DNA of 64,000 nucleotides. Source: an uncultured Lachnospiraceae bacterium (GTDB lineage: Bacteria > Bacillota > Clostridia > Lachnospirales > Lachnospiraceae). This document shows, one piece after another, positions 632-64,000 of this stretch. Every line of letters starts with the position of its first letter. The stretch's first letter is position 1. The notes beneath the pieces were generated by a model that did no database searches, had not been told where the DNA came from, and saw only the letters and a list, made by a program, of their open reading frames with translations. The stretch covers positions 1 through 64,000 of the forward strand of contig CANQMR010000014.1 of NCBI GenBank assembly GCA_947625015.1, in the 5' to 3' direction. Both the position numbers and the translations under genes were made by a program.

Positions 632-665
632 TACAGAACTATATCTGATAAAAGGAGGCCTTAAT

Positions 666-1340: not shown

Positions 1341-1341
1341 C

Positions 1342-1394
1342 GTTAAGACTTTTTTAAGGGTTTTGTTAAGTGTTTTTTTATCATTCTCTGATAA
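1342..1394 (+). promoter_or_regulatory. Candidate response-regulator operator and promoter region
   Basis: Three copies of (G/T)TTAAG start at 1342, 1353 and 1365, spaced 11 and 12 bp. OmpR/PhoB-type regulators bind head-to-tail half-sites spaced about one helical turn. A second element, TTATCA-N5-TGATAA, follows at 1378-1394. Both sit in the 99-bp gap between the regulator gene and the ABC ATPase gene. That this is the regulator's own target is inference. Confidence 0.45.
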
Positions 1395-1439
1395 GCTGAA
1401 ATCTGAACATAATTCTAATTTCAAAAAGGAGGATGCACT

Positions 1440-3220: not shown

Positions 3221-3304
3221 TATGACCGCTGTTGCCGCTTCCTTCAGGGAAACCATATAGACAGCGTTTTACTGCACCAAACATATTAGAAGGGGGATTG
3301 GATT

Positions 3305-4195: not shown

Positions 4196-4220
4196 ATACC
4201 GCCATATTCCCGTCAGCTAT

Positions 4221-4676: not shown

Positions 4677-4819
4677 GGTATATACCTCCTTAAATAATAT
4701 ATTATTATTGATTCCATTTACAGAATGAATATGTTTTCATTCCGCTTCCTCTTCATTCTAATACCAGATTCCACTTTTGAAAAGCCCCTTTACCGCTTAT
4801 GCATTTTCTGCGGTTCGGA

Positions 4820-5821
4820 CTACTTTGTCTGCTCCTCATATATCTCCCGCTGCTTGGAAAGCTCCTCTTTCATCTGTTCCACAACCGCCTCGGGCTCCAC
4901 GATCCGGACTCCGCCGCCTAAGGCAAAAACCCAGCCGAAAAAGCGGCTGCTGACCGCCACCTCCACATTTACCTCAAAATGCTCTCCGTCTGCTTTCCGC
5001 ATATTCACATCTTTTCCGAAACGGTCAATAATGACGCCTGCATAGGCATTTTCACATCTAAGCTTTACCGTCTGCTCGCTGCCGCCAAACATGCCAAAAC
5101 GCCGCTGGGAATAAGACGCCATATCCATTTTTTCAAAAACAGAACGGCCCTCCCGCATTTCCTCCAAAAGGCGGATATTCAGCATTTTATCCACCCTGAA
5201 GTGCTTCATCATACCGGCCTGTCCGTCATAGCCCATGAGATAATATTTTTCATCGGCCCAAATTAGCTCCCATGGAGAAATCTGATAAAATGCGCCCTCC
5301 CGCCTGAACTCCATTTTCTTATCCACATTCCACTGAAAATATTGGAACTGAATCTGCACATTATCGCCAATGGCCTGGTGCAGCTTGTCCACATTATAAT
5401 AAATGCTCTCGTTCATGGTCTTTACCCGTCCCTGAACGCGAACCTGACGGTGCAGCCCTTTTCCCTCATAGCTGCTGACAAAGCCCTCCAGCTTCCGGAT
5501 AAGCTCTCTTGATTTTTTCTCTGTGATAAATCTGGAGGACTGCACTGCATCCACCAGAAGCTTCAGCTCCGCCACCTCAAAATCCCTGGCGCCAATATAG
5601 TAACATACCGAACGGCCCCTCTTTTCGCAGATAATGTCAAGGCCATATACCCGCAGCGCCTCAAAATCGGCATAGAGACTTTTCCGCTCCGCCGCAATGC
5701 CATACCCGGCAAGCTCTTCCGCAATCTGCTTAAGCGTCATGGGATGCGCCTCGTCTGTCTTTTCCAGTAAAATCTTCATCAGATAGATTAGTTTTAATTT
5801 GTGGTTTGCCCCTCTCGGCAT
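4820..5821 (-). CDS. WYL-domain transcriptional regulator
   Basis: A 333-residue protein with an N-terminal helix-turn-helix (residues ~5-60; LKQIAEELAGYGIAAERKSLYADFEAL) and a WYL domain at ~140-220 (the SPWELIWADEKYYLMGYD segment is typical), followed by a WCX-like C-terminus. ATG at 5821 is chosen because AGGAGG stands 7 bp before it; an ATG 24 bp further upstream has no site. WYL regulators bind small ligands or nucleic acids. The gene faces away from the flavodoxin gene's promoter and its targets are unknown. A second such regulator lies at 39946-40962. Confidence 0.88.
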   Translation of the reverse strand: MPRGANHKLKLIYLMKILLEKTDEAHPMTLKQIAEELAGYGIAAERKSLYADFEALRVYGLDIICEKRGRSVCYYIGARDFEVAELKLLVDAVQSSRFITEKKSRELIRKLEGFVSSYEGKGLHRQVRVQGRVKTMNESIYYNVDKLHQAIGDNVQIQFQYFQWNVDKKMEFRREGAFYQISPWELIWADEKYYLMGYDGQAGMMKHFRVDKMLNIRLLEEMREGRSVFEKMDMASYSQRRFGMFGGSEQTVKLRCENAYAGVIIDRFGKDVNMRKADGEHFEVNVEVAVSSRFFGWVFALGGGVRIVEPEAVVEQMKEELSKQREIYEEQTK

Positions 5822-5863
5822 GCCGCCACCTCCTGCGCCCTGCAAATCCAGTTTCCGGAAATA

Positions 5864-6634
5864 TTACTGTCTCTCTGCCCTGCAAAGGTCTTTTATGACC
5901 TCTCCTGCAATAATTAAGCCGGCCACCGAAGGCACAAAAGCTGCGCTTCCCGGCACATGCTTTCCGGCTGCGGCGCTCTCTTTCCCGCCCTCTTTCTCCG
6001 GCAGCCCTTCACTGGCATTGTCCTCCATGGCTATATCGACAGTGGCGCCAACCGGCGTCTCCTCCGAATACACAACCTTCAGCGATTCCACGCCCCGTTT
6101 CTTTAACTCCCGCCGCATGACCTTCGCTAAAGGACATACCCTTGTCTGATAAATGTCGGCAACCTGAAACCGACTGCCGTCTAACTTATTTCCCGCGCCC
6201 ATGCTGCTGATAATTGGAACGCCCTTTTCTTTCGCCTTCATGACCAGCCCAATCTTAGCCGTAACCGTATCTACCGCATCTACAATATAGTCATACTCCC
6301 CAAAGGGAAATTCATCTGCATGTTCCGGCAGAAAAAACCGCTTGTAAACCGTAACCTCCGCCTCCGGATTAATGTCGAGAATCCGCTCCCTCATCACTTC
6401 CACCTTATCCCGCCCCAGTGTCTTGTGGGTGGCAATAATCTGCCGGTTCAAATTGGTGAGGCTGACCTGGTCGTTATCAATCAATTCAAAATATCCGACG
6501 CCGCTACGGGCAAGCGCCTCGCACACATAGCCCCCTACGCCGCCGACTCCAAAGACCGCCACCTTAGAATGGGATAATTTCTCCATTGCCGCTTTGCCTA
6601 ACAATAATTCTGTTCTTGAAAACTGTGTCAACAT
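5864..6634 (-). CDS. tcdA: tRNA threonylcarbamoyladenosine dehydratase
   Basis: A 256-residue E1-like (ThiF/MoeB/HesA) enzyme. The nucleotide loop GVGGVGG is at residues 29-35, and the downstream ARSGVG, DNDQVSLTNLNRQ and DAVDTV segments are those of TcdA. It converts t6A37 of tRNAs to the cyclic form in an ATP-dependent reaction in the cytoplasm. A CPLAKVMRRELKKRG segment is also typical of TcdA. A purine-rich site (GGAGGAAGG) lies 13 bp before the ATG, a little far. The WYL gene is 42 bp downstream on the same strand, so they may be co-transcribed. Confidence 0.92.
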   Translation of the reverse strand: MLTQFSRTELLLGKAAMEKLSHSKVAVFGVGGVGGYVCEALARSGVGYFELIDNDQVSLTNLNRQIIATHKTLGRDKVEVMRERILDINPEAEVTVYKRFFLPEHADEFPFGEYDYIVDAVDTVTAKIGLVMKAKEKGVPIISSMGAGNKLDGSRFQVADIYQTRVCPLAKVMRRELKKRGVESLKVVYSEETPVGATVDIAMEDNASEGLPEKEGGKESAAAGKHVPGSAAFVPSVAGLIIAGEVIKDLCRAERQ

Positions 6635-6744
6635 GGCTAACGCTATTCCTTCCTCCGATTGACCGGCATACTGATCTGCAACTTATCTTATTTGTCCAAT
6701 ATAGTATCACATAACTGGTTACTTTTCCATAAAATCTTAGCATA

Positions 6745-6772
6745 ATAAAAGCAGGTATCATAGTACCTGCTT
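6745..6772 (-). terminator. Rho-independent terminator
   Basis: On the minus strand a 9-bp perfect stem (AAGCAGGTA / TACCTGCTT, 6749-6757 with 6764-6772) is followed by TTTTATTATG. It lies 3 bp after the stop of the 84-residue gene and separates it from tcdA. Confidence 0.8.
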
Positions 6773-6775
6773 AAT

Positions 6776-7030
6776 CTACAGCTCCGCAATCTTTTCCTGA
6801 CATTTCTCTATAATCTCCTGTGTTGCGCTCGCTATCTCCTCCGGCGTATGCTCGCGGCAGTAGGACGGCGGAAAAAACCCCGGCTGTTCCATTGCCCACC
6901 ACCAGTCATCTTCATATTCCAACCGCTTCAACATTCTTCGTTCCGCCCTCTGCACCTGCCGGTCTGCAATCCAATCCTGTATGCGGATATACATATATTT
7001 GACATTTCTCATTTCATTTTCAATCTTCAT
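6776..7030 (-). CDS. Small hypothetical protein, Trp-rich centre
   Basis: An 84-residue protein of unknown function. Its middle carries a cluster of tryptophans and aromatics (DDWWWAMEQPGFFPPSY, about residues 41-57), flanked by charged helices (RRMLKRLEYE before; EEIASATQEIIEKCQEKIAEL after). There is no signal or membrane segment. AAGGAAAA stands ~6 bp before the ATG and a strong terminator follows directly, so it appears to be a real single-gene unit. It resembles no family I can name. Confidence 0.65.
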   Translation of the reverse strand: MKIENEMRNVKYMYIRIQDWIADRQVQRAERRMLKRLEYEDDWWWAMEQPGFFPPSYCREHTPEEIASATQEIIEKCQEKIAEL

Positions 7031-7109
7031 CCAATTTTCCTTATGTTCTAAAATTCCCAGCGCTGCCTATCCATTACATCTGTATAGTTACATCGTTAAC
7101 ATTAAGTTC

Positions 7110-7129
7110 ATGGTGCGTATACGCACCAT
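7110..7129. promoter_or_regulatory. Perfect 20-bp palindrome, candidate operator
   Basis: ATGGTGCGTATACGCACCAT is its own reverse complement. It lies 60 bp before the small XRE gene at 7189, touching a TATTAT that could be its -10 box. Position and perfection suggest binding by a dimeric regulator, perhaps the encoded XRE protein itself; that is inference. Confidence 0.5.
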
Positions 7130-7188
7130 ATTATTATAGGGCATTCCATTTTACAATACAAGCAGAAAACAAAGGAAGGCTCATATTT

Positions 7189-7413
7189 ATGATAACTTAT
7201 GACAAATTATGGCAGACATTGCGGAACAAAGGAATCAGTCAATATAAACTCATCTACACCTACGGCATTGATAAAGCCCAGCTGCACCGTCTGCGCAAAA
7301 ATATGGTAGTTAAAACAATGATCCTCAACCGATTATGTAATATCCTGCAATGTGATATCTCCGATATCATGGAATTTATCCCGGATGATACAGATTCCTC
7401 CGCTATACAGTAA
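7189..7413 (+). CDS. Small XRE/YozG-like helix-turn-helix protein
   Basis: A 74-residue protein that is almost entirely a Cro/C1-type helix-turn-helix: DKLWQTLRNKGISQYKL, then a recognition region around DKAQLHRLRKN and the ILNRLCNILQCDISDIMEF ending typical of small YozG-like regulators. GGAAGG precedes the ATG by about 11 bp. It stands alone on the plus strand, with a perfect palindrome upstream. It may be a self-controlling repressor; targets are unknown. Confidence 0.8.
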   Translation: MITYDKLWQTLRNKGISQYKLIYTYGIDKAQLHRLRKNMVVKTMILNRLCNILQCDISDIMEFIPDDTDSSAIQ

Positions 7414-7510
7414 TCGTACACCTTCTTTCTTGCGATTATTGTCGATTCCTGATGTGCATACAGACATCATCCGTTACCATTAACGGACTTCTGAATCTCC
7501 AACCGTTCTT

Positions 7511-7560
7511 CCAATAAAAAATCCTCTTATTATTGTATGTCTCCACACCATAATAAGAGG
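7511..7560 (-). terminator. Terminator of the aquaporin gene
   Basis: On the minus strand an 11-bp stem (CCTCTTATTAT with ATAATAAGAGG, 7550-7560 and 7523-7533) is followed by ATTTTTTATTGG. It lies about 50 bp after the aquaporin stop codon. Confidence 0.8.
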
Positions 7561-7615
7561 ATAATGTATTTTATTCATTTTGTCATTGGACAAATAGTCC
7601 AATCAATCTATTCTG
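7551..7615. repeat. ~60-bp duplicated element, copy 1
   Basis: This copy spans the terminator end and the aquaporin stop codon. It matches 8792-8855 over ~60 bp with few differences; the core is TGTCATTGGACAAATAGTCC followed by AATCAATCTAT. The core contains an inverted repeat, TTGGAC(N5)GTCCAA, at about 7587-7602. Nothing similar was noticed elsewhere apart from a 12-base partial match near 6687. Confidence 0.6.
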
Positions 7616-8330
7616 CTTCTGCCTCTTTTGACGCCTGCTTTTCACTGGTCAACGCCTTATACGCCACTGCTGCCAGCGCAGCGCCAACAAAAGGACCTGC
7701 AATAAATACCCACAGACAGGCAATCGGATCTGTATTGCCATTTATCGCTGCCACTACTGCCGGGCCAAAACTTCTGGCCGGATTCACACTGGTGCCGGTA
7801 AGGCCAATTCCCAGAATATGTACCAATGTCAGCGTAAAGCCAATCACAAGTCCGGCAAAAGAACCATGCTTTGCTTTCTCATCTGTCACGCCCAGAATTG
7901 TGAGCACAAAGATAAAAGTCAGAACCATTTCAACAATCAGTCCGGCAGCCGCGCTTCCGCTTACTCCGTCCAGTCCGTTCGAACCAAATCCGCCGGTCAT
8001 ATCTTCCACGCTTCCGGTAGTAAAGATTGCAGCTAAGACACCGGCTCCTGCCAGAGCGCCAAGGCACTGGGCAATTACATATCCCACAAAATCCTTCATT
8101 GTCATCCGGCCGCTCACCAGCACGCCAAGGGATACTGCCGGATTAATATGGCATCCGGATACATTGCCAATGCTGTAGGCCATTCCCACAATAACCAGAC
8201 CAAAAGCCAGAGCCGTCAGGATATATCCTCCGCCCATCTCTGCATCGCAGCCTACAAGCATGGCAGTACCACAGCCCATGATAACCAGAACGGCAGTACC
8301 AATTAATTCTGCAACATACTTTTTCATCAT
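7608..8330 (-). CDS. Aquaporin (MIP family, AqpZ-like)
   Basis: A 240-residue, six-TM channel with both NPA half-helix motifs: HINPAVSLG (about residue 64) and SVNPARSFGP (about 188). Length fits the water-selective AqpZ group better than glycerol facilitators, which carry insertions, but selectivity cannot be settled by eye. The start at 8330 follows GGGAGGT at 6 bp; a longer frame to 8429 has no such site. It lies downstream of a small HTH gene, yet has its own promoter at 8395-8423. The C-terminus is a short charged tail (SKEAEAE). Confidence 0.9.
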   Translation of the reverse strand: MMKKYVAELIGTAVLVIMGCGTAMLVGCDAEMGGGYILTALAFGLVIVGMAYSIGNVSGCHINPAVSLGVLVSGRMTMKDFVGYVIAQCLGALAGAGVLAAIFTTGSVEDMTGGFGSNGLDGVSGSAAAGLIVEMVLTFIFVLTILGVTDEKAKHGSFAGLVIGFTLTLVHILGIGLTGTSVNPARSFGPAVVAAINGNTDPIACLWVFIAGPFVGAALAAVAYKALTSEKQASKEAEAE

Positions 8331-8394
8331 TATATTACCTCCCACATAATGGTTATTCGTCCGGCGCATGTTTATCTGCATCGAACATTCCATT

Positions 8395-8423
8395 ATTATA
8401 GTAAAAAAGGTCGAAAAGGGCAA
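8395..8423 (-). promoter_or_regulatory. Promoter of the aquaporin gene
   Basis: Minus-strand TTGCCC (8418-8423), 17-bp spacer, TATAAT (8395-8400), 65 bp before the aquaporin ATG and just after the stop of the HTH gene. Confidence 0.65.
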
Positions 8424-8435
8424 GAGCAATAAATA

Positions 8436-8756
8436 TCATACCTTGATGACCCGCTGCATATATTTTCCATAAGGTAATATCCGCTGTATCTCCGGCGGAC
8501 CCCATAATGCAAGAATATTCAGTACAACAAGTTCTCCCCGCAGAACCAACAGGTCCTCCATGTGGGTATCTAACAGATTGCTCAATGCATACAGATGTTC
8601 CAGCGATGGAAGCGCTTTTCCCTTAAACCATCTGTATATCGACTGAGGACAGGAAAAATGCAGATATTCCTGTATGTATTTCACATCATAACCCGCTGTT
8701 CTTAACATAATCTTTAATTTAAGTCCTGTTTTTACCTGATCGATTGGCAAATACAT
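8436..8756 (-). CDS. Helix-turn-helix protein
   Basis: A 106-residue protein. Residues ~8-65 form an HTH of XRE type (VKTGLKLKIMLRTAGYDVKYIQEYL, then SIYRWFKGKALPS as recognition region and LEHLYALSNLLD). The last 40 residues are hydrophobic and basic. Start at 8756 is fixed by AAAGGAGG 5 bp upstream; a longer frame to 8795 lacks a site. It lies upstream of the aquaporin gene, and copy 2 of a duplicated palindromic element stands at its promoter, so it could regulate itself and that gene. The latter is inference. Confidence 0.75.
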   Translation of the reverse strand: MYLPIDQVKTGLKLKIMLRTAGYDVKYIQEYLHFSCPQSIYRWFKGKALPSLEHLYALSNLLDTHMEDLLVLRGELVVLNILALWGPPEIQRILPYGKYMQRVIKV

Positions 8757-8791
8757 AAAAGCCTCCTTTACTGACGGATTCTCTGGGTATA

Positions 8792-8855
8792 ACAAAAGGA
8801 TAATTCCCTATATTTCATTTGTCATTGGACAGATAGTCCAAATCAATCTATCCCG
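8792..8855. repeat. ~60-bp duplicated element, copy 2
   Basis: It matches 7551-7615: both contain TGTCATTGGACA(A/G)ATAGTCCAA and AATCAATCTAT, with the same inverted repeat TTGGAC(N5)GTCCAA (8826-8841). It lies directly upstream of the HTH gene on the minus strand, where a promoter and operator would be expected. Confidence 0.6.
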
Positions 8856-8912
8856 GATGTCTTCAGTAACATCTTTTTTAATTTTTTTATTTTTTCCAAT
8901 AAAAATTATACA

Positions 8913-10304
8913 CTAACACTGTATAATTTCTTTGTATTCAACCAAGCTCACATTACCCATCTCATCAGCCTTATCCATACATCCTTTTGTAAATCCGGAT
9001 TTAGAGAACAGATAGTAATGCTTTGTTTTATAATGAAATAGTTCGCTGCGTTTCACAAGAGTTTCCAATACGCTAAGTTCAACCTTTTCGTTTGTCCATT
9101 TGCACTCTGCGAAGAGGGCTGTGTTTTTGTCCTGTTCGCCCATAATATCAATCTCAGCCTGGGCTTTTTCCTGAGGATTATTGCCCCACCAACGGCCGAG
9201 AGCGTTAAACTCTACCGGGCATCTACCTAAAAGGAGCTGTTTCCAAAGGTACTGTTTACAGATTTCCTCAAAAACCTTTCCCATATAGTCTGAAAGTTGA
9301 GGTTCAATGCGTTTGTAAGCCAGATCAGCAGCGCCGCGGGCAATGATTGAATTGTTATCGAGCACAAAACGATACCAGAACCTGAACATATTATCTTGTA
9401 TGGAGTAGATTGCCTTTCGGGAAACCTTTTCGCCGTAAGGCGTTTCTTTCTGCACGATTCCAAGACTTATAAGATTTTTAATATAGTTTGCGCAAACATT
9501 TGTATCTTCGCCCACTTTACTTGAAATTTCGGACATTCTCGACGAACCCGTTGCAATGGCTGTAATAATAGCCATATAGATTGCAGGTTCACGAACTTCC
9601 TGCTTTAAAAGGTTAGTCGGTTCCTCGTAAAGAAATGACATTGGATTGAGATATGTGTTTTTTATATTATCCTCTATGCTTAACTTGTCATTCATCTGTA
9701 AAAGATACTGCGGCGTACCGCCTGCAACGCCGTAAATAATTGCTTTGTCTTCATCAGAAAAGTTTTTGAAACAGGAACAGGTTTCTTCAAAGTCGAAAGG
9801 TAACAGCTTAATTTGAGCTGTTCTTCTGCCGTAGAGAGGCGCTTTATACGCAAGCACATGATCTTCCATATAGGACATGGACGAACCGCAGAGAATCAGC
9901 ATTAGTTTTGATTTGTCTTTGTATCTGTCTATCAGGAGCTGCAATGTGGAGGCAAGGCTTTTTGATGAACGTGCCACATAAGGGTATTCGTCAATCGCAA
10001 GTATAATTCTTTCTTTTTCAGCAAGCTTAAACACATATTCAAGCGCAGCCTGAAAGGACAGAAAAGATGATTCGCTTTCAAGGCCGCTTGCAAACTCCAT
10101 AATACTTTTTGAAAGGTTTTCAAGATTCTGCTTCGCGTTGCTTTCAACGCCCATGAAATATATGGCTCTTTTATCGCAGATAAACTGATTTATAAGCGCA
10201 GTTTTACCTACGCGTCGTCTGCCATAGATAACCGCAAATTCAAATTTATTCGATTGATATAAATTGTTAAGCGTATTAAGCTCGCGCTCTCTGCCTATAA
10301 ACAT
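8913..10304 (-). CDS. ATPase with DUF234-type C-terminus
   Basis: A 463-residue P-loop ATPase of the archaeal-type AAA class often labelled 'ATP-binding protein (DUF234)'. Walker A is GRRRVGKT at residues 28-35, Walker B is ILAIDEYPY near 100, and a sensor-like LILCGSSMSYM follows. A winged-helix region (~240-290) leads to a C-terminal region with a PD-(D/E)XK-like pattern (EIDIMGEQ then LFAECKWTNEKV, ~385-410), as in this family. The biological role of these proteins is not established. It has its own strong promoter overlapped by an inverted repeat, and is a stand-alone gene in an AT-rich stretch, which fits an acquired element. Confidence 0.85.
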   Translation of the reverse strand: MFIGRERELNTLNNLYQSNKFEFAVIYGRRRVGKTALINQFICDKRAIYFMGVESNAKQNLENLSKSIMEFASGLESESSFLSFQAALEYVFKLAEKERIILAIDEYPYVARSSKSLASTLQLLIDRYKDKSKLMLILCGSSMSYMEDHVLAYKAPLYGRRTAQIKLLPFDFEETCSCFKNFSDEDKAIIYGVAGGTPQYLLQMNDKLSIEDNIKNTYLNPMSFLYEEPTNLLKQEVREPAIYMAIITAIATGSSRMSEISSKVGEDTNVCANYIKNLISLGIVQKETPYGEKVSRKAIYSIQDNMFRFWYRFVLDNNSIIARGAADLAYKRIEPQLSDYMGKVFEEICKQYLWKQLLLGRCPVEFNALGRWWGNNPQEKAQAEIDIMGEQDKNTALFAECKWTNEKVELSVLETLVKRSELFHYKTKHYYLFSKSGFTKGCMDKADEMGNVSLVEYKEIIQC

Positions 10305-10332
10305 TTACACACCTCCGTTTTAGGTTGTTTAT

Positions 10333-10360
10333 ATTATAGTACAAAAAATAAATTAGTCAA
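10333..10360 (-). promoter_or_regulatory. Promoter of the DUF234 ATPase gene
   Basis: Minus-strand TTGACT (10355-10360), 16-bp spacer, perfect TATAAT (10333-10338), followed by GGAGGTG and the ATG at 10304. The -35 box lies inside one arm of the inverted repeat at 10354-10388. Confidence 0.8.
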
Positions 10361-10388
10361 GTATAAATGAGTAATTTATACTTGACTA
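10354..10388. repeat. 15-bp-arm inverted repeat over the promoter
   Basis: TAGTCAAGTATAAAT at 10354-10368 and its exact complement at 10374-10388, separated by GAGTA. The arms cover the -35 box of the ATPase promoter, so it may be an operator. No T-run follows on either side, so it is not a terminator. Each arm contains TTGACT. Confidence 0.75.
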
Positions 10389-10420
10389 AATAGGAAATAA
10401 CGGATATTTATCCTATAAAG

Positions 10421-12526
10421 TTAAAATATATTCCCAAGCAGCAACGGATTAAATAAGATATACTGCGAATTTGGAACACCGAAAGCTGCAAGAGCGAGTG
10501 GTATTATGAATATCACTATACATGAAATAATCACAGAAATACTGTTTTCAAAATATCTGAATGACACAAAAATGACCTTAGTAACAATCAGACCGCCGAT
10601 AAACCTCATTGCCATCACAATCAAAATATACTGAAAGACTGATATATTCTGCGGGACTCGTGACAAATGCTCCATACTTGCAGCAGGCGCAGCAAACCCG
10701 CATATACCGTATGCCATAAGCACATTCAACATACGTACAATATATACCAGTACAAATGCAATCAGCGTACATAGAACGCCCAATACCCCTTTGATATTTT
10801 TGAGATTTTTTCTGCCATGATAAGTTGTCCTTAAAATCCTCATTTCTGAATTAGCAAAATCAACGCCGTAAATGCCGCATGTTATGGCAACAATTATCAT
10901 AAGATATGCAAATGCCTGTGAAATATCCCGATTTTTTAAATGATGATTGTCCGTAAGAATATCATATCCTTTTTCATAAAATAACCATCCGCCCTTTTGG
11001 GATTCAAGATATGCAATATGTTCCGTAAGCATGTTAAATGCATCTTGCCTGCATAACTCATCTTTATATTTTATGCTGATATAATTTTCACTCTTTCCCT
11101 GCTCAATATCAGCGGATATGTTCGCAGACATCTGATTATATTTTTCCCTTTCTTCATTTAACAGCTCATCATTTTTAGCATCTAAAGGCCCATAAAATTT
11201 ATCCATATATTCTTTGTAGTAGACCTCATCAATTGTATCAAACTGAATCCTCTCTTTTGGATTCCACCCTATCACAAAAAGGCATGAAAATATCAATACA
11301 AGAAAGCCCCGGCCGGGAACAAGCATCTTGTAACATTCATGCAGAAAAAGAGAAGTATGACCTTCAAGACCTTTAAGGCAATCCAATCGCCGTAAAGAAA
11401 TAATCCTTTTTTCGTGCGATGCTTCAAGATAATTGATGACGGCAAAGGAAAAAACAACTGTGAATACCAGCCAGAATATCCCATGCAAAATGCATGTATT
11501 AACCGGATATCCTATCACATTCAAATTCACATAATCGGAAAACATACCGCCGGTTTTGACGCCGGAGAAGATATTTAAGTATTTTAGAAATGCAAGAAAA
11601 TGCGTTCCGGAAATCTTAGTATAACAAATTATTTCAACAAGAACTGTCAAAGCCGAAGCAGTAAAGACAAAAATGATATGGTTAAATATAACGCATATCC
11701 ACATAAACAAAATTCCAAGGAGAATACAGCTTAAAATTTTAACAAGAAAATAACCCCGCAGAAATTCTCCTATCGTTAAGCCGAACGGACTGTTCCGGTA
11801 TAAATTCACACTTTGGAGCGGGCTTTCAAAATCTATAGGATGATAAAAACATCTGCTTATTACAGCATTCATTCCATATAAAGACATGGTGATAAACAAA
11901 ACAAATAAAAGCATCGCAAGGACTTTGGACGCCATCAGCTTTCTTCTTCCATTTGATGTTGTTCTGAGAAAATATAATTGATTTTCATTTTTTTCGTAAA
12001 AAATAAGGTTTATGGCAATAACGAATATCATTATTATCGCTATGTAATCCGTAAGTTCATTGTCAGTGATATTAAGCATACCCATAGAGTCTTCCACTTT
12101 AAGCTCTGTTCCTTTCAGTTTCCGGTACACCTTGTTTGTCTTTTGAGCATTTCTTACCGCATATCCGCCATTACCGGCGAAACGGTCCATAAGGGCAATC
12201 TCTTCGGCCTTTTCATTGACAGAATCAAGATATTCCTCATATGTAATACACGCTTTTACTTCCTTGTAAACCCTGGAATAAAGGTTTGCTTCACCGAACG
12301 TATCAGCCTTTATTTTTCCCTCTTCGATTGCAGGCAGAAGATTCTCCCGACTATAAGCGCTAATTTCATGATATAACCGGCTGTAATCCTTAGGCGAATA
12401 TCCATCTTCATTGGGCGTATGGATAATATACAGTTGCAGCAAAGGATTGATGGCAATCAAAACCAAAAGAATTGACACTGTCCTTTTCGTCAGTAATTTG
12501 CATATTTCATTTTTTAATAGTTCCAT
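10421..12526 (-). CDS. Large fused ABC-2 type permease
   Basis: A 701-residue membrane protein that reads as two permease halves joined. Each half starts with a cytoplasmic stretch and one TM (residues ~14-32 and ~405-425), then a charged external region of ~110-130 residues with Tyr/Glu-rich helices, then five or so TM segments (~160-375 and ~530-700). This would give a complete transmembrane unit in one chain. The ATPase gene ends 2 bp upstream. The locus also holds an anchored binding protein and a LytTR system. Substrate is unknown; a peptide or lipid-linked toxin is likely by analogy. Confidence 0.8.
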   Translation of the reverse strand: MELLKNEICKLLTKRTVSILLVLIAINPLLQLYIIHTPNEDGYSPKDYSRLYHEISAYSRENLLPAIEEGKIKADTFGEANLYSRVYKEVKACITYEEYLDSVNEKAEEIALMDRFAGNGGYAVRNAQKTNKVYRKLKGTELKVEDSMGMLNITDNELTDYIAIIMIFVIAINLIFYEKNENQLYFLRTTSNGRRKLMASKVLAMLLFVLFITMSLYGMNAVISRCFYHPIDFESPLQSVNLYRNSPFGLTIGEFLRGYFLVKILSCILLGILFMWICVIFNHIIFVFTASALTVLVEIICYTKISGTHFLAFLKYLNIFSGVKTGGMFSDYVNLNVIGYPVNTCILHGIFWLVFTVVFSFAVINYLEASHEKRIISLRRLDCLKGLEGHTSLFLHECYKMLVPGRGFLVLIFSCLFVIGWNPKERIQFDTIDEVYYKEYMDKFYGPLDAKNDELLNEEREKYNQMSANISADIEQGKSENYISIKYKDELCRQDAFNMLTEHIAYLESQKGGWLFYEKGYDILTDNHHLKNRDISQAFAYLMIIVAITCGIYGVDFANSEMRILRTTYHGRKNLKNIKGVLGVLCTLIAFVLVYIVRMLNVLMAYGICGFAAPAASMEHLSRVPQNISVFQYILIVMAMRFIGGLIVTKVIFVSFRYFENSISVIISCIVIFIIPLALAAFGVPNSQYILFNPLLLGNIF

Positions 12527-52518: not shown

Positions 52519-53088
52519 CTACGATATTCTCTGCTTTAATTCCCTTACATCAGATTCCAGCTTATTGACTTTAACAGACAACACTTCTACCTCGCTGCTC
52601 GGTTTCTTAGCCTCCAGCAGATTCCTTGCCAAATCGCTGTGCCCTTCTGCAATACGCTGGATGTTAACCCGAATCTCGTTTTCGATAATTAATTCAATCT
52701 TACTTGTTCTTTGCTTGACTTCTTTCATATCGATTTCCAGATTGGATACTTTGTCGCACAATCCGTCAATCTTTCCTACTTTGTCGTAGATCTCGTCAAT
52801 CTTGCCTGCTTTGTCATAGACCTCATCGATCTTGTCTAGCCTATCGTAAATCTCATCGATCTTGTCTAGCCTATCGTAGACCTCATCGATCTTGTCTAGC
52901 CTATCGTAGATCTCATCGATCTTGCCTATCCTGTCATAGACTTCATCGATCTTTCCTACTTTTTCATAAATCTCATCGATCTTGCCTATCCTGTCGTAGA
53001 CTTCATCGATCTTTCCTACTTTGTCGTAGACTTCTTCCAGTCTTTCTACTTTGTTTAAAATAATATCCAGCTTTTCGCTGTCCGTCAT
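52519..53088 (-). CDS. Coiled-coil protein of ten-residue repeats
   Basis: A 189-residue protein. Residues ~20-120 are about ten tandem copies of a 10-residue unit, (V/I)YD(K/R)(V/I/L)(G/D)KIDE, encoded by 30-bp repeats; a non-repetitive coiled helix follows (EVKQRTSKIELII, KVNKLESDVRELKQRIS). It has no signal or TM segment. It may be a cytoplasmic fibrous or scaffolding protein. The ATG at 53088 has GGAG 10 bp upstream; the frame could begin at a GTG at 53097. Copy number probably varies between strains. Confidence 0.8.
   Translation of the reverse strand: MTDSEKLDIILNKVERLEEVYDKVGKIDEVYDRIGKIDEIYEKVGKIDEVYDRIGKIDEIYDRLDKIDEVYDRLDKIDEIYDRLDKIDEVYDKAGKIDEIYDKVGKIDGLCDKVSNLEIDMKEVKQRTSKIELIIENEIRVNIQRIAEGHSDLARNLLEAKKPSSEVEVLSVKVNKLESDVRELKQRIS
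52765..53050. repeat. 30-bp tandem repeat array
   Basis: About nine to ten units of 30 bp inside the coiled-coil gene; a typical unit on the plus strand is CTCATCGATCTTGTCTAGCC followed by TATCGTAGAC. Two sequence classes, with TTGTCTAGCC or with TTGCCTATCC/TTTCCTACTT, are interleaved, as expected of unequal crossing-over. All units keep the reading frame. Confidence 0.85.
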
Positions 53089-53134
53089 ACATATCACACT
53101 CCTTTTTCATAATTGCTATACATAAGAATGTGTA

Positions 53135-57180: not shown

Positions 57181-58728
57181 TCAGCATTGGGCAGCATCTC
57201 CACTTTCTATGTATTCTGCTGACAGCTTTTTCCTGTCGATCTTCCCATTGTCATTGAACGGGAATGTTTTAAGGCGATAATAAATAGTGGGTACCATATA
57301 TTTCGGAATTACCGAAAGAAGATAATTCTTCATCTCATCTTCCGTCACATCCCCCTGATAAAACAGGACGATCTGCTTCTTTTCATGGTGGTATGAGGCG
57401 CATACATTCGTAATACCTTCTTTCCCCATTGCCACGCTCTCAATCTCACCCAATTCGATCCGGTAGCCAGAATGCTTGATCTGGAAATCCTTCCTTCCCG
57501 CAAAAACTAACTCTCCGCGTTCATTGTAAAACACTAAATCGCCAGTCCGGTACATTCGCTCATAATAATGATCAGAACAAGGGTTCTTAACATACTTCTC
57601 ATTGGTTTTTTCTTCATCCTCCCAGTATCCAACTGAAAGGGAACTCCCATATACACACAGTTCGCCCTGAATACCTGACTTGTCCTTTTCGACCACTCGG
57701 CCATCGGCATCAAGGACAATCAACCCTGTGTTCTCGCAAGCCTTTCCTAATGGCAGAGTCTCATCATCTTTAAACTCTCGATCAACAATATAATACGTAC
57801 AGTTCACAGTTGCCTCTGTTGGACCGTAGACATTTGCAATCATCTTCAGATTGGGAAGGTTTTTCTTCCAGTAATTCATCTGTTTTACCGGCATAACCTC
57901 ACCGCCAAACATAATAAGTGTGACCTCATCTAAGATAACTGATTCCAAGAGCTTAAAATTAGCAATTGAGACAAACGCAGATGGAACCCAGTATAGAAAG
58001 TTGATGTGCCTTTCCTTTATAAAACGCAATACCATGACTGGAAAGGCAAAGTACTTCACCGGGATAATGCCCAGTGTCGCCCCAGTCTTCAAGGTTGTAT
58101 AAATATCCTGAGTGGAAATGTCAAAATAAAATGGAGACTGATTTCCCATGACCGTATGTTCATTGATTTGGAATGCGTTTACTGCCCAGTCCGTATAATC
58201 AATTACATTATGGTTGTTGATAATTACCCCCTTGGGTGTCCCCGTAGAACCAGAAGTGAAAAATGTATACACCGGATCTACATCCAGAATGTCCCCCGTT
58301 AGGACAGATGAATCTCCATATGCCCCAGTTTTTTTCACTTCATCAAGATTGATTAGCCGAAGTTCGCTGTCCGGAACGAAATCCAGGAACTTTTCCTGCG
58401 TTTTCCCATTAACGATCACTGCGGCTGGATGAAGAGTCTCAATTACGCTGACCACCTTCTCAGCAGGAAAACGGGTATCTGTGGGCGTGTAAAAATTTCC
58501 GCTATATAAGATTCCCATAAACGCCACGATGCTATCTATTGTTTTCGGCAAATAGACTAAGATCGGATTTCTTTTCCCTTTCAAGTATCCTCTAATATGA
58601 TATCCGAGATCTATCGCACGTTTTCTAAGCTCTGCAAAAGTAATGCTGTCTTGCTCATCAAAAAAAGCGACTTTGTCTGCATATTTTACCGCACTCTCTT
58701 CCAAATAGGATAAAACGGTTCTCCTCAT
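57181..58728 (-). CDS. DltA-like acyl/aminoacyl-adenylating enzyme
   Basis: A 515-residue ANL-superfamily enzyme of the D-alanine-poly(phosphoribitol) ligase type. Motif A3 is FTSGSTGTPKG (157-167), A5 is NVYGPTEATV, A7 YRTGDLV, and A10 NDNGKIDRKKL with the catalytic lysine. It should activate a carboxylic acid as adenylate and load it on the carrier protein encoded 16 bp upstream. The start at 58728 follows GGAAGGAG. No dltB or dltD gene is in the window, so classical teichoic-acid D-alanylation is not supported; the acid and the acceptor are unknown. Confidence 0.88.
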   Translation of the reverse strand: MRRTVLSYLEESAVKYADKVAFFDEQDSITFAELRKRAIDLGYHIRGYLKGKRNPILVYLPKTIDSIVAFMGILYSGNFYTPTDTRFPAEKVVSVIETLHPAAVIVNGKTQEKFLDFVPDSELRLINLDEVKKTGAYGDSSVLTGDILDVDPVYTFFTSGSTGTPKGVIINNHNVIDYTDWAVNAFQINEHTVMGNQSPFYFDISTQDIYTTLKTGATLGIIPVKYFAFPVMVLRFIKERHINFLYWVPSAFVSIANFKLLESVILDEVTLIMFGGEVMPVKQMNYWKKNLPNLKMIANVYGPTEATVNCTYYIVDREFKDDETLPLGKACENTGLIVLDADGRVVEKDKSGIQGELCVYGSSLSVGYWEDEEKTNEKYVKNPCSDHYYERMYRTGDLVFYNERGELVFAGRKDFQIKHSGYRIELGEIESVAMGKEGITNVCASYHHEKKQIVLFYQGDVTEDEMKNYLLSVIPKYMVPTIYYRLKTFPFNDNGKIDRKKLSAEYIESGDAAQC

Positions 58729-58744
58729 ATTTTTTCTCCTTCCA

Positions 58745-58975
58745 TTACACATTTGCACCATTTTTCTTTAATAAATCTTTTATGGCAGACGCAGTACAAA
58801 AATTATCTGGTATGATATCCATCCCATCGATCTGAATATGATATTTTTCTTCCAACCTCGAAATGAGCGTTATGATATCGAATGAATCAAGGAACCCATC
58901 CTCCACATAATCCTCACTTTCCTTAAAGTTATACTCCGGCCTCACTTCTTTCAACATTGCGTAAATCTCTTCCAT
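58745..58975 (-). CDS. Acyl carrier protein, DltC-like
   Basis: A 76-residue four-helix carrier protein. The phosphopantetheine site is Ser31 in GFLDSFDI, resembling the LDSF site of DltC rather than the DSLD of fatty-acid ACPs. It is placed between the formyltransferase and the adenylating enzyme genes with gaps of 13 and 16 bp. It probably carries the acid activated by the DltA-like enzyme. Confidence 0.9.
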   Translation of the reverse strand: MEEIYAMLKEVRPEYNFKESEDYVEDGFLDSFDIITLISRLEEKYHIQIDGMDIIPDNFCTASAIKDLLKKNGANV

Positions 58976-58988
58976 TTTCTTAATCTCC

Positions 58989-59873
58989 TTATCTTTTTTC
59001 TATTTCCATCGGAACAATTCCGATAGTGATTTTCATGCCATTGTCACTTAAAATAATGCTGTTTGCTTCATGTATCTTTGTCCTCTTGTCTCCGGCTTCC
59101 ATTTCTTGCGTAATAGAATATCTTTCAACACTGTATTCCGTTCCGTCAAGAATCAGCCTCAATTTCGGCATCAGATCCATGCCGCGATAATCATATGCCC
59201 GTAACAGCCTACTGATATGCAGGATAGGTTTGTCCAAATCAAGGCATCCTTTATCTGGTAGTTCTCTAGCTTTATAGACTCTTTCAACTTTCGGATAGGA
59301 AACCTCCCGTCCTTGAATTTCTCTTTCCAGCAGTTCCTCATAAAAGGATTCAAATGCCTCCCGCCCCAACTGCATCCCTTTCCTTGTTATGTCAAAAGCT
59401 GTTGTGGTATCTTCAATTATTATGGTACGCTGGGCAATAATACTACCATGATCTATTTCCTTTGTCACATAATGCCAAGTTATCCCCGTTTCTGTTTCTC
59501 CATTACAAATCACCCATGTCGGGATATTCATCCCTCTGTATGCCGGAAGCAAAGCATAATGAAAATTAATGATTTCTACATTGGGTTGACTAATCAGTTC
59601 TTCCCTGAAAATATACCGGTTGTTTGCACTGATAATCAGTACATTCCGACTTCTTGCATATTTCATCAGGTATTCCGTTATCTGTCCTTTGTCTATGATG
59701 TTTACATATTCCAACCCATATTTATGGGCAAGTTTGGACAACATAGAAACTGTTGGCAGCGCAGTTTCCAATACTGAAAGCATAGTAGTTTCCACTTTTT
59801 TTGCAAGGAGCGCCACACAGTCGCATGCGATTTTATTAGCCCCCATCACTAGCACACTCTCAAATCGCATCAT
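58989..59873 (-). CDS. Formyltransferase-like protein (sugar N-formyltransferase candidate)
   Basis: A 294-residue enzyme of the formyl-transferase superfamily (Fmt, PurN, sugar N-formyltransferases). The catalytic triad is intact: Asn103 and His105 in NFHYALLPAYRG, and Asp141 in KEIDHGSI. It is shorter and more divergent than Fmt and lacks the tRNA-binding C-terminal domain, fitting enzymes that formylate an amino-sugar or aminoacyl group using N10-formyl-THF. Its place among glycan genes supports this. Overlaps the GNAT gene by 4 bp. Confidence 0.8.
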   Translation of the reverse strand: MMRFESVLVMGANKIACDCVALLAKKVETTMLSVLETALPTVSMLSKLAHKYGLEYVNIIDKGQITEYLMKYARSRNVLIISANNRYIFREELISQPNVEIINFHYALLPAYRGMNIPTWVICNGETETGITWHYVTKEIDHGSIIAQRTIIIEDTTTAFDITRKGMQLGREAFESFYEELLEREIQGREVSYPKVERVYKARELPDKGCLDLDKPILHISRLLRAYDYRGMDLMPKLRLILDGTEYSVERYSITQEMEAGDKRTKIHEANSIILSDNGMKITIGIVPMEIEKR

Positions 59874-60685
59874 GCCGCCCCCTGTTCTATTGTTATTTCA
59901 GCATATGAAGATATAGTTATGGAGGTCTTCATTGTGATACCCCCCCAATTCGTATATAACTTCAATGCTGGGTCATTTGTTGTCTTACACCATAGAGTAA
60001 ATCCTTTGAAATTCTTGTGCATATAAAAATAAGCAAGCATAAGTTTTTTTCCTATCTCCTTACTTCTGTATTTTTTATTAACACATAAGTTTCTTATATA
60101 AGATGTTTTGCCTTTATCCTCAAAGATAATATAACCCATTATATTTCTTTCATCCCTAAGGCAGATCACCAATCTATTCTGGATATATGCTCTTAGTTCA
60201 GCATCGGAAGGAATATAATCACCAATAGCGGAAAAGTTAGTTTCTAGCATGTAGCGAATAGCCGGGATATCCATCTCTGTACAATACTCTGCGTCTTCCT
60301 CCGGCAGTTTATTAGGCTCTGAAAAACCTTTTCTTCGAAATCTTGTATACTGAAGAACATCCTTACATTCCATCTTTTTACTGATGTCATATTCCCCCAA
60401 TCCACCCTTGGTTACAATCTCAATCACCACTGTCTCTGTTTCTGTCACTTGGAAATCATTTATCCAACAGAAGTCATCCCCGACAAAATATAATTTTTTG
60501 TATCCGCACTCCTGTTGCCAAATAAGCAAACTCCCTTTTCTCATTTCCGTCCAGAACTGTTTTTCTGAACATTGTTCTCGGAGTTCTTCTATTGTGAAAT
60601 AACAGTTTGTATACTTCTTCTTTTTCCGAATAAATTCAGCATATATTTCATTAACCTGCACATTTATTCCCCCTAACTCTTTCAT
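59870..60685 (-). CDS. GNAT acetyltransferase-like protein
   Basis: A 271-residue protein. The N-terminal ~125 residues have no recognised fold by eye; the C-terminal half is a GNAT domain: motif A at IRNLCVNKKYRSKEIGKKLM (residues ~193-212) and the ending PALKLYTNWGG. It would transfer an acyl group from CoA or, given the next genes, from the carrier protein to an amine. Overlaps the formyltransferase gene by 4 bp; GGGGGAG precedes the ATG. Confidence 0.78.
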   Translation of the reverse strand: MKELGGINVQVNEIYAEFIRKKKKYTNCYFTIEELREQCSEKQFWTEMRKGSLLIWQQECGYKKLYFVGDDFCWINDFQVTETETVVIEIVTKGGLGEYDISKKMECKDVLQYTRFRRKGFSEPNKLPEEDAEYCTEMDIPAIRYMLETNFSAIGDYIPSDAELRAYIQNRLVICLRDERNIMGYIIFEDKGKTSYIRNLCVNKKYRSKEIGKKLMLAYFYMHKNFKGFTLWCKTTNDPALKLYTNWGGITMKTSITISSYAEITIEQGAA

Positions 60686-60784
60686 AATTCTCCCCCACTC
60701 TTTTTAATCAAGTATTTCCTATATTTCGATCATATTTTATCTTCTCTCTAAATTAATTTGTTTTTTCACTGTTTTGCCCAAAAT

Positions 60785-61708
60785 TTAATCATTCAGTTCA
60801 TGCGGAGGTATTAAAATACTTTGTTCGGAATACAAGAGACCATATGGAAACATTTGCTCATCATCCTTAAAGTTCTTTTCTAACCGTACTCTCTTTCTCT
60901 TAAAATATGGTAATTTATAATTTATTTGTTCTCCACCAAGGAAACGACTGTCTGCCTCTAATAAAGCCTTTTCTCTCTTTTCAATGGACCAGACAATATC
61001 TCTAGCATACTTTCCACACAAATCTGGATCTGATGAATAAAGAACACGTATGCATCGATATTTACCAATTCCGAATTTCATTACCATAACACGATAAAAA
61101 AGATAGCATATTGTTCCCTCAGCAGAAATGCAAGCGCATCTGACCCCATATACTTTATGGTCTTCATAGACCCTCTGAAGGTCTTTTTGACTGATCTGAC
61201 TACTATCAGTGATAATTTCTATTTTCACTTTTTTACTTCTTATCAAAGGAATTGGAAGAAATTTATATCCAACTTTATCAACTCTTTTGTATTTGAATAA
61301 ACTTTCTTCAATCTTTTGATTTACCTCAATTGGTGAATAGCTACTTACTATATCACATACTTCATGTGCAAGACTAAACATAGAATACACTTGTATTCTA
61401 TATTTAGGATCTATCGCTGTTGTGCTGAGATTTCCGCATATATACTCTTTTCCATTGATAACTTGCTTTGATATAATCAAACCATTGAAACCTACCACAT
61501 TATCTTCTTTATCAATTAAGACCATTCCTCTGGAATAAGCAATCTTTTGATTTGTAATATCGCTAAATTCCCACCTATAATTAATTATAGGATTTAGCCA
61601 TTTGTTGATGGTAGCATCACTATAAGTTCTCATCCATGGAAAATTTCGTTTTAATAAGTCAATTACTCCTATTAAATATTCATCCTTATATTCCTCTATT
61701 CTAATCAT
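60785..61708 (-). CDS. GNAT-like protein of unknown function
   Basis: A 307-residue protein. The first ~130 residues resemble a GNAT N-terminal half (KDEYLIGVIDLLKRNFPWM, VIDKEDNVVGFNGLI, CGNLSTTAIDPKYR). The C-terminal part is basic and less conserved. It has no membrane segment. Located between a deacetylase gene (40 bp upstream) and the GNAT gene (99 bp downstream), on the same strand. It may modify a sugar, but no catalytic residue can be pointed out. Confidence 0.55.
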   Translation of the reverse strand: MIRIEEYKDEYLIGVIDLLKRNFPWMRTYSDATINKWLNPIINYRWEFSDITNQKIAYSRGMVLIDKEDNVVGFNGLIISKQVINGKEYICGNLSTTAIDPKYRIQVYSMFSLAHEVCDIVSSYSPIEVNQKIEESLFKYKRVDKVGYKFLPIPLIRSKKVKIEIITDSSQISQKDLQRVYEDHKVYGVRCACISAEGTICYLFYRVMVMKFGIGKYRCIRVLYSSDPDLCGKYARDIVWSIEKREKALLEADSRFLGGEQINYKLPYFKRKRVRLEKNFKDDEQMFPYGLLYSEQSILIPPHELND

Positions 61709-61748
61709 TGTTCTCCCTCAAAATAATGTACAACATTTTTAAATTAGT

Positions 61749-62987
61749 TTAATTACTAATCAGTTTAAAACGTTCTCGATTTTGCTTTAATTTAATTTCA
61801 AATATAATTTTATCGTTATAGTTTGTTCCTTCAATATCTGTTCCTATTTCAGACCTCAACAAATATTTTCCTTTTTTGCTCTCCTTTTTATTTGACCAAC
61901 GCAGTGCAATCCAAATGGATTTACCAACCAATTCAGTTTTTTCTACAGCAACAACTACCCAATTACCATCCAGCAATACTGTAGTATTCTGATATGTCTT
62001 CCAATACTCTGCAATTTCATGTCCTGTAGCATACCAAAGGTCATAGCGTTTCAAATATCTAAGAATATACCGAATATTGGAAATATCATCTACCACATTA
62101 GGAGACTGGTGCTTTTCGTCCTCCCTAATAGGCGAAGAGTGCTCTTGAATATTGACCACCATACCGTTTTGCACCAAACGATCCAAAATACGCTCAATAG
62201 TAAGTCCATACTTAAATAAATAGTAGATTGCCCTTAAATAATTTCGACTAATAAATTTTTGAATATTCAGTAATGAAAGCAACCCTCCATCAACTGTCGA
62301 AGGAATATCAACACACCCACTAAATTCTTCTATGTTCAAATTCTCTACACCGGCGCTACGATGAATATAGATATTTCCATCCCAATGTCTGCACCACCAT
62401 TCAAAACCTGATTTGGAAATGGATGCATCTGAAAATTCGTTAAATTCATATCCGCAATATTTTCCGCCATAAAATTTCTTTCCTGTCACACGATGATAAA
62501 GTTTCTTGGATTTTTCTATGGTTTGACAGGCTTCTTCCAACGAAGTAAATGTAATCCATTCTTGAGTCAGATAATCTTCCTGCAATTTACCATGCGTATA
62601 TCCGTGATAAGCCACTTCAAATCGTTCGTCTTCAGTAATTTCCCTAAGAAAATCAGCAAATTCAGGGGTTTCATCAATTCGCCTTGAAACTGATGGTTTC
62701 CCATTTGCTATAAATGCTTCTCGTCTTCCTACTACAAGGAACAATGTCATTTTTACATATGGAAAATCTGAAAATATCTTTTTCTGCAGAAACTCATACA
62801 AAGAATGGGGTTGCCTACATCTTCCTCCCCAATCAGCACCGACATAGTCTCCATCTAACTTATCTGCCATGTATTTGTTTGCAAAATCATCAATCATAAA
62901 CATGACTGGGGCCTGTTTACCATATTTCCATTTACATTTTTCAACTTCCATCTTTACACAAGATACTGCAGTGCCTACAGTTTTCAT
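61749..62987 (-). CDS. NodB-like polysaccharide deacetylase
   Basis: A 412-residue protein of the carbohydrate esterase 4 / DUF2334 type. The metal ligands appear as Asp33-Asp34 (MFMIDDF) and the His pair His128/His132 (YHGYTHG), as in NodB folds. The C-terminal ~85 residues are an extra beta-rich domain. There is no clear signal peptide, so it may act in the cytoplasm on a lipid-linked intermediate or nucleotide sugar. It precedes the MurJ-like gene's 3' end by 52 bp. Confidence 0.78.
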   Translation of the reverse strand: MKTVGTAVSCVKMEVEKCKWKYGKQAPVMFMIDDFANKYMADKLDGDYVGADWGGRCRQPHSLYEFLQKKIFSDFPYVKMTLFLVVGRREAFIANGKPSVSRRIDETPEFADFLREITEDERFEVAYHGYTHGKLQEDYLTQEWITFTSLEEACQTIEKSKKLYHRVTGKKFYGGKYCGYEFNEFSDASISKSGFEWWCRHWDGNIYIHRSAGVENLNIEEFSGCVDIPSTVDGGLLSLLNIQKFISRNYLRAIYYLFKYGLTIERILDRLVQNGMVVNIQEHSSPIREDEKHQSPNVVDDISNIRYILRYLKRYDLWYATGHEIAEYWKTYQNTTVLLDGNWVVVAVEKTELVGKSIWIALRWSNKKESKKGKYLLRSEIGTDIEGTNYNDKIIFEIKLKQNRERFKLISN

Positions 62988-63039
62988 ATATAATATTTCC
63001 CTCCCGTACTATCAAAAATCAAACTCTCAGTCGCTACAG

Positions 63040-64000
63040 TTATTTAGAGTGAATTTTTTTAATAATACCATTTAATGCTACATATACAGCTTCATTTTTG
63101 AACGCAATCTGTACACATAGATATACTACGATATAAATGACTGCAATTACGCAACATTCTATTATCTTGGAAATAGTTCCTCCTATACGAAAAACAATTC
63201 GCTTCTCCATTGCAAATATTAAAAAGGATGCTGTCAATCCAGATAAAAATGTTTTAATAAATGAACCCTGAATATCTTTAATATTAATATAACCGTCATG
63301 CGATAGGGATATAAAAAGTAATATGGCACCAATTATCGCTGTAATTGCAGTGGCAAACGCCGCTCCCTTATATTGCATAACCCTGATCAATATCAAGTCT
63401 AAAATGATATTCCCTCCTGTACACAAGAGCCCATTTATCATAGGCGTTCTGGTGTTTTGCTTACAATAGTACATTCGAACTTGAATATCCCGAAGTCCCA
63501 TAGCTGGCAAACCAATTGCATAAAAAGCCAAAGAAGCCGATGTTTTTCTTACAGATTCCGAGTCAAAAATACCGCGTTCAAATAAAATACTTACTATACT
63601 ATTTCTCAAAAAAATAATCAGCAACGAAATAGGAACAATATATGCAACTACCGATTTTACAGTATTTGTACATACTATTATAAATTTTTTTTCATCTTCA
63701 TTTGCACTTACAGCCATTTCAGGATATACAATATTAATAAAAGAAGCAACTACCACTCCAATAACCAACCCAATCACTTTATATGCATAATTCAGTGCCG
63801 ACACACTGCCAGTTTCCAAACCCGACACAAGAGTCTTATCAATCATAGAGTTAATTTCCGTTGCGGCAGTTCCTATCAATACTGGAATTAATAAAGGAAG
63901 CCATTCCTTCAAATAATGATCTGATGTTATCCCTTTCCAATTACCTTTAAACAAACCACACTCTGCGACTTTAGGCAAATAAAAAAGGACCTGTGCCATA
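63040..64000 (-). CDS. MurJ/MviN-like flippase, 5' end beyond window
   Basis: The visible 320 residues are the C-terminal two thirds of a MurJ/MviN-type transporter (full length about 500): repeated TM helices with EINSMIDKTLVSGLETGSVSALNYA near residue 50 and a GLRDIQVRMYYCKQNTRTP loop near 165. The frame runs off the right edge without an upstream start, so the gene is cut. In gut Firmicutes such flippases can serve lipid II or exopolysaccharide repeat units; the neighbours favour the second. Confidence 0.85.
   Translation of the reverse strand, partial: MAQVLFYLPKVAECGLFKGNWKGITSDHYLKEWLPLLIPVLIGTAATEINSMIDKTLVSGLETGSVSALNYAYKVIGLVIGVVVASFINIVYPEMAVSANEDEKKFIIVCTNTVKSVVAYIVPISLLIIFLRNSIVSILFERGIFDSESVRKTSASLAFYAIGLPAMGLRDIQVRMYYCKQNTRTPMINGLLCTGGNIILDLILIRVMQYKGAAFATAITAIIGAILLFISLSHDGYINIKDIQGSFIKTFLSGLTASFLIFAMEKRIVFRIGGTISKIIECCVIAVIYIVVYLCVQIAFKNEAVYVALNGIIKKIHSK

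Follow-up and report, generated by a model that had tools for sequence, protein, structure and literature searches.

Why should an operon for a surface polysaccharide end in genes for a formyltransferase, a small carrier protein and an adenylating enzyme of the kind that activates amino acids? The question is raised by a contig of an uncultured Lachnospiraceae bacterium (CANQMR010000014.1, assembly GCA_947625015.1), of which positions 1 to 64,000, here called the window, were analysed. At its right-hand end (57181–64000), three minus-strand genes lie contiguously in the order FT-ACP-AL: a formyltransferase of the 10-formyl-tetrahydrofolate type (FT; 58989–59873), a 76-aa carrier protein (ACP; 58745–58975) and a free-standing adenylating enzyme resembling DltA and the A domains of nonribosomal peptide synthetases (AL; 57181–58761). 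Judged from the sequences, it is likely that the three proteins together correspond, in free-standing form, to the start module of linear gramicidin synthetase (F-A-T, for its formyltransferase, adenylation and carrier functions) and that they serve here in the decoration of a surface glycan.

A candidate start module in three proteins

The individual assignments of the trio were largely borne out. AL matched the Pfam AMP-binding family with 196.6 bits, and its top PDB matches include the A domains of the gramicidin synthetase LgrA. The LDSF site ascribed to the carrier protein in an earlier note on this DNA was found as a serine within GFLDSFD, aligned with the serine of the D-alanyl carrier protein, in a protein that has no Pfam match. 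FT (Formyl_trans_N, 71.8 bits) has the intact Asn-His-Asp set described in that note, as Asn103, His105 and Asp141, which are invariant across 17 aligned members. The label “DltA-like” stood only in part: AL scored 290.6 of the 559.85 bits required by the DltA equivalog, and ACP scored 27.6 of 68 bits with the DltC model NF003464 and 20.3 of 52.35 with the dltC model TIGR01688, so that an adenylating enzyme and a DltC-like carrier are confirmed and the DltA/DltC equivalogs are not. Six DltA-model matches occur in the genome, none above the curated cut-off, and a canonical dlt operon was rejected on these grounds.

The substrate pocket bears on the order of the reactions. At the positions that we take from the GrsA code, presumably including the Asp that holds a free alpha-amine, this Asp is kept in all 20 AL proteins read at 17 AL/ACP loci (one AL, from L072, is a fragment), and Phe occupies the 301 position in every AL read there. 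The pocket DIQYIFVVN is shared by the AL proteins of the window, L033, L035 and L038; elsewhere DNLFIFLVD, DIFFVFLLD, DVAYIFIVA, DVKIIFLCN and related types are found, and with several pocket types present, the pocket could not be used to identify the amino acid. Because the Asp is kept, loading should precede formylation. Folate-dependent formyl transfer is cytoplasmic, and MBOAT partners, found at related loci, export the acyl group; together with the Asp, this makes aminoacyl-S-ACP the simplest substrate. In the proposed pathway, AL would adenylate an alpha-amino acid and load it onto the phosphopantetheine arm of ACP, FT would cap the bound amino group using 10-formyl-tetrahydrofolate to give N-formyl-aminoacyl-S-ACP, and an acyltransferase would pass the N-formyl-aminoacyl group to a glycan. 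The earlier note proposed that a glycan locus combines carrier-based activation of an acyl group with formylation and a flippase, which agrees with the present results; its placing of the formylation on a glycan amine is probably wrong, the comparison of loci pointing to the ACP-bound amino acid instead.

The same three functions stand together in the F-A-T module of LgrA, in which they belong to one synthetase and not to three adjacent genes. F domains, known from three peptides, are described as formylating once loading on T has taken place, whereas the stand-alone formyltransferases found in siderophore clusters use other monomers (PMC8949500). The present trio also differs from LgrA in its position at a glycan locus, in an operon without a condensation domain, and in an FT that has a C-terminal domain and is nearer to sugar formyltransferases than to the LgrA F domain.

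Genomic linkage of the formyltransferase clade

FT was sought in 144 relatives, in 397 genomes of the family, 391 of the class and 398 of the phylum, and in one contig scan (ten loci). Matches at E ≤ 1e-25 came from 12 of the 397 family genomes; eleven of these belong to the FT clade, and L071 does not. After removal of duplicates (L040 = L034, L044 = L035, L062 = L039), 20 distinct FT-clade loci were counted, namely the window, L033–L036, L038, L039, L041–L043, L045, L063–L070 and L072; a Treponema hit (L047) with neither AL nor ACP, whose FT matched with 50 bits and lies on a contig of 6.9 kb, was left uncounted. The genomic neighbours of FT and the carrier protein, to which the earlier note had pointed as a check, proved informative: AL and ACP were present within the region read at 17 of the 20 loci, and neither was found at any of the eight outgroup FT loci (L037, L046, L071, L073–L077). 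Three of the latter (L073, L076 and L077) are pseudaminic-acid-type clusters, in which a sugar formyltransferase is expected. The search profiles were built from FT-clade loci, so member scores are high by construction, and the outgroups were not in the profiles; Fisher's test gave p = 5e-5, a rough value for loci related by descent. The grouping of FT, ACP and AL is thus more than chance.

In L063–L068 and L072, FT sits between AL and ACP. The contig of L043 begins inside FT. L036 carries, instead of the AL/ACP pair, a gene resembling amino acid--[ACP] ligase (157 bits, cut-off 357) and ACP-like genes; the ligase-like gene is, by its sequence, a predicted different way to aminoacyl-ACP. The distant L036 cluster (278–11048) comprises KASIII-like, AL-like, ACP-like, ABC transporter-like, aminoacyl-ACP ligase-like and FT genes and perhaps represents a small-molecule pathway. 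In Helicobacter labetoulli (L045), the set includes three AL genes, each with a pocket type of its own, a hint that such genes have passed between phyla of gut bacteria.

In a tree of 36 rows, the 19 rows of the FT clade separate with support of 100/96 from the remaining 17 (Fmt, PseJ-like and others), and the FTs of L036 and L069 nest within the clade. FT of the pseudaminic-acid locus L035 is broken into two open reading frames (7446–8305) and was counted as a locus and omitted from the tree. The structure of FT was predicted with high confidence (pLDDT 93.3), with the C-terminal domain present, and the matches of the modelled fold to sugar formyltransferases, Fmt and ArnA neither prove nor exclude an aminoacyl-ACP substrate.

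Several observations weigh against a start-module role of the trio. The nearest solved sequences and folds of FT are sugar formyltransferases (WbkC, FdtF, ArnA) and Fmt; FT scores 38 bits to LgrA versus 75 bits to WbkC, and LgrA was not among the best 50 fold matches listed. L069 has FT and an MBOAT gene with no AL or ACP nearby, with SGNH-type and WbuX-like genes present and ALs on another contig of the same genome. In L036, the Asp is missing from both AL-like proteins. DegT aminotransferases occur at three of the 20 loci (L034, L035 and L072), and L034 and L035 are pseudaminic-acid clusters. Many AL/ACP sets are without FT, including that of L079, whose AL is 74% identical, has the same pocket type and is accompanied by KASIII and GNAT genes. 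Finally, the window copy itself has neither MBOAT nor KASIII.

Part of this evidence would fit an FT that is simply a sugar formyltransferase, with a nucleotide- or lipid-linked amino sugar as its substrate, while AL, ACP and a GNAT protein independently acylate the same glycan, and we give this explanation a modest but real chance. The closest solved relatives and the two pseudaminic-acid loci speak for it, and a deacetylase-like gene of the window operon could provide the amine. At the same time, it accords poorly with an FT clade that shares the fold and Asn-His-Asp of ArnA, WbkC, FdtF and PseJ but is separate from the PseJ-like enzymes, and that follows AL/ACP (17/20) rather than aminotransferases (3/20). 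No DegT gene was found in the region read at the eight MBOAT-type loci L063–L070, and the ten PF01041 aminotransferase matches of the genome all lie on contigs other than that of the window.

The polysaccharide operon and the transfer step

The trio belongs to a run of seven closely spaced minus-strand genes (spacing –17 to +99 bases), all of whose reading frames are present as the earlier note had listed them. Its expectation that the 5' part lies beyond the window was also correct: the seven genes form the 3' part of a longer minus-strand run of 16 genes from wecB to AL (spacing –35 to +99 bases), which continues past 64000 and lies 284 bases downstream of a gene for a LoaP-like antiterminator (only 112.6 of 125 bits); the contig ends at 75994. 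The MurJ-like flippase recognised earlier (63040–64000 in the window; 319.2 bits to TIGR01695, cut-off 235.55) is a protein of 517 aa whose start lies at 64593. This gene (63040–64593) is the sole one of seven MurJ-model matches in the genome above the cut-off, yet it lies inside the polysaccharide operon. Upstream of it in the same direction follow genes for a GT4 glycosyltransferase, an AT3 acyltransferase, a Wzy/O-antigen-ligase-like protein, a PaaK-like AMP ligase, a heparinase II/III-family protein, a hexapeptide acetyltransferase, a nucleotide-sugar dehydrogenase nearest to UDP-ManNAc dehydrogenase, a WecG/TagA transferase, WecB and the antiterminator. A glycosyltransferase is among the genes that the earlier note had suggested looking for. 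With LoaP, a WecG/TagA-type transferase, a Wzy-like protein, a flippase and nucleotide-sugar enzymes, this is a LoaP-headed Wzy-type surface-polysaccharide locus. The earlier note had seen no dltB or dltD in the window and named their discovery, with teichoic-acid genes, directly upstream as refuting its proposal; neither dltB, dltD nor KASIII occurs among the operon genes, and no MBOAT/DltB-type or DltD-type partner was found in the window end or in L002. Four MBOAT genes are present in the genome, all on other contigs. Elsewhere in the window, 52519–53097 encodes a coiled-coil-like protein rich in repeats of the KIDE(V/I)YDR type.

The three remaining genes of the seven, all on the minus strand, offer candidates for the last step. 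GNAT1 (59870–60685) is a tandem-GNAT-like protein (Acetyltransf_1, 38 bits, cut-off 20.7) and a candidate acyl-transfer or capping enzyme; its structure, predicted with moderate confidence (pLDDT 70), matches tandem GNATs, with the aminoacyl-transferring domains of MprF/A-PGS among the weaker matches. The GNAT1 family is a loose one, because its profile members in L039, L042 and L045 have no Pfam match. The earlier note had listed two GNAT-like proteins, and the second, GNAT2 (60785–61708), could be related to the superfamily only by one weak PDB match (E 0.008), to glucosamine-phosphate N-acetyltransferase; it has no Pfam or NCBIfam match, and a search of 249 further genomes of the family yielded no relative. 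The reading of the next protein (61749–62987) as a NodB-like deacetylase, made in the earlier note, finds weak support: DD at residue 33 and HxxxH at 128 are present, and the DUF2334 score of 23.8 bits is below the cut-off of 26. In the window copy, the acyl group could be transferred by the AT3 protein or, to an amine, by GNAT1 or GNAT2; in the GNAT route, the amine would perhaps be freed by the deacetylase-like protein and the unit then exported by the MurJ-like flippase. The acyl sink of this copy is a guess, as it has no MBOAT or KASIII.

In the relatives, the acyl group would go to a DltB-like MBOAT, in most cases accompanied by an SGNH-type protein, for a polymer outside the cell, and/or to a KASIII/reductase set that could lengthen the chain. 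MBOAT was found at 10 of the 20 FT-clade loci and KASIII of the KASc kind at nine; in seven relatives, a DltB-like MBOAT stands beside the trio and in an eighth beside FT alone (L063–L070). The MBOAT proteins have two invariant His (10/10) and end in FxYxxF (8/10) or FxYxxY (2/10), corresponding to the acyl-shuttle motif of DltX and PatA (PMC12148441); the motif stands at the MBOAT C-terminus, as it does in PatA, and not in a DltX. The MBOAT of L065 reached 142 bits with TIGR04091 (cut-off 375). In the SGNH-type proteins, GxS and an invariant His are present in six of six aligned and DxxH in five; three of them were searched and gave no convincing Pfam match. A Dlt-like export branch thus occurs within the family, but not in the window copy. 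The Cys, His and Asn that we take to be the KASIII active site are kept in all eight KASc and four KASd proteins aligned, so condensation is possible, and a role of KASIII as a pure acyltransferase was rejected. WbuX-like amidotransferase genes at three of the eight MBOAT-type loci (L064, 11824–12861, 165 bits, cut-off 203; L067, 5837–6850; L069, 13508–14521) adjoin AL or are near FT and MBOAT, and their products might convert a formamide to an amidine.

KASIII, reductase, FabD and carboxyltransferase sets at other loci are polyketide-like, and L036, with its KASIII, carrier, ABC transporter-like and aminoacyl-ACP ligase-like genes, resembles a metabolite cluster. The trio might then make a small secreted metabolite, its position at the end of a polysaccharide operon being incidental; we regard this as improbable, since the window trio terminates a glycan operon with tight gene spacing, both L034 and L035 are glycan loci and MBOAT occurs at half of the loci. 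Moreover, a second copy lies in another LoaP-headed locus of the same genome with glycan-type genes around it. This copy, on contig C2 (L033), comprises ACP, AL (69% identical), a second ACP, reductase, KASIII, FT (46%), GNAT1, MBOAT and a 389-aa protein without family match, and its upstream LoaP gene is above the cut-off.

It is far less probable still that the window copy is a remnant without a product, the working pathway being the C2 set or requiring KASIII/MBOAT in trans. The orphan GNAT2 and the closest relative, L038, in which KASIII, AAC(3)-like, reductase and MBOAT genes, none of them seen in the window copy, surround the same GNAT1-FT-ACP-AL block, would be compatible with such decay. 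Nevertheless, AL, ACP, FT and GNAT1 are full length and 76–85% identical to those of L038 (blastp), the FT and ACP motifs are intact and the spacing is tight.

Formylation as a proposed optional cap and its implications

AL relatives (E ≤ 1e-85) were found in 160 of 394 family genomes, so most AL sets are without this FT. Twelve AL regions, chosen from the upper part of the list and one of them from an FT-bearing genome, were read: ACP was present in all twelve, MBOAT and SGNH-type matches in eight and FT in none, and Ser replaces the alpha-amine Asp in 3 of their 13 ALs. In two FT-less MBOAT/SGNH loci (L083, 7691–8554; L084, 10852–11673), a GNAT gene lies between AL and ACP, in the slot taken by FT in L063–L068 and L072. 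Formylation thus appears to be an optional cap, to which GNAT may be an alternative. L079 also encodes a large protein (6363–8864) that is presumably LuxE-like. The broader proposal, that Dlt-like envelope decoration has a general, modular branch in which FT or GNAT caps carrier-bound amino acids at the amine and KASIII with reductase can lengthen them, is put forward more tentatively, at somewhat less than even confidence. The trio shares with Dlt D-alanylation an adenylating enzyme and a small carrier, and in relatives the DltB-like MBOAT and SGNH-type proteins; it differs in the added FT, in scores far below the DltA/DltC cut-offs and in the window copy without MBOAT/SGNH.

A product of the predicted kind has been reported, N-formyl-L-alanyl on the O2 glycan of Vibrio anguillarum (PMC10059132, citing Sadovskaya et al. 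1996). Flagellin glycosylation islands likewise join formyltransferase, ACP and acyl ligase/reductase genes in glycan loci, which the accounts given there interpret as sugar formylation and lipoylation (PMC4875605, PMC5109656). Among the matches listed from the open-licence literature, none linked an FT to an AL and its carrier for decorating glycans and none was a biosynthesis paper for a glycan N-formyl-aminoacyl group, in keeping with the earlier remark that no system of this composition had been described. The trio is best read as uniting two known kinds of chemistry, that of peptide synthetase start modules and Dlt-type decoration, in a combination that would be new.

The trio would offer a concrete, testable route to N-formyl-aminoacyl groups on glycans and would allow the formyltransferase genes and “fatty acid” genes of glycan islands to be read in another way. 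If the broader proposal is true, polymers would receive neutral N-acyl-aminoacyl groups in place of charged ones, and KASIII with reductase would provide N-formyl gamma-amino beta-hydroxy acyl groups, a mini-polyketide for sugars.

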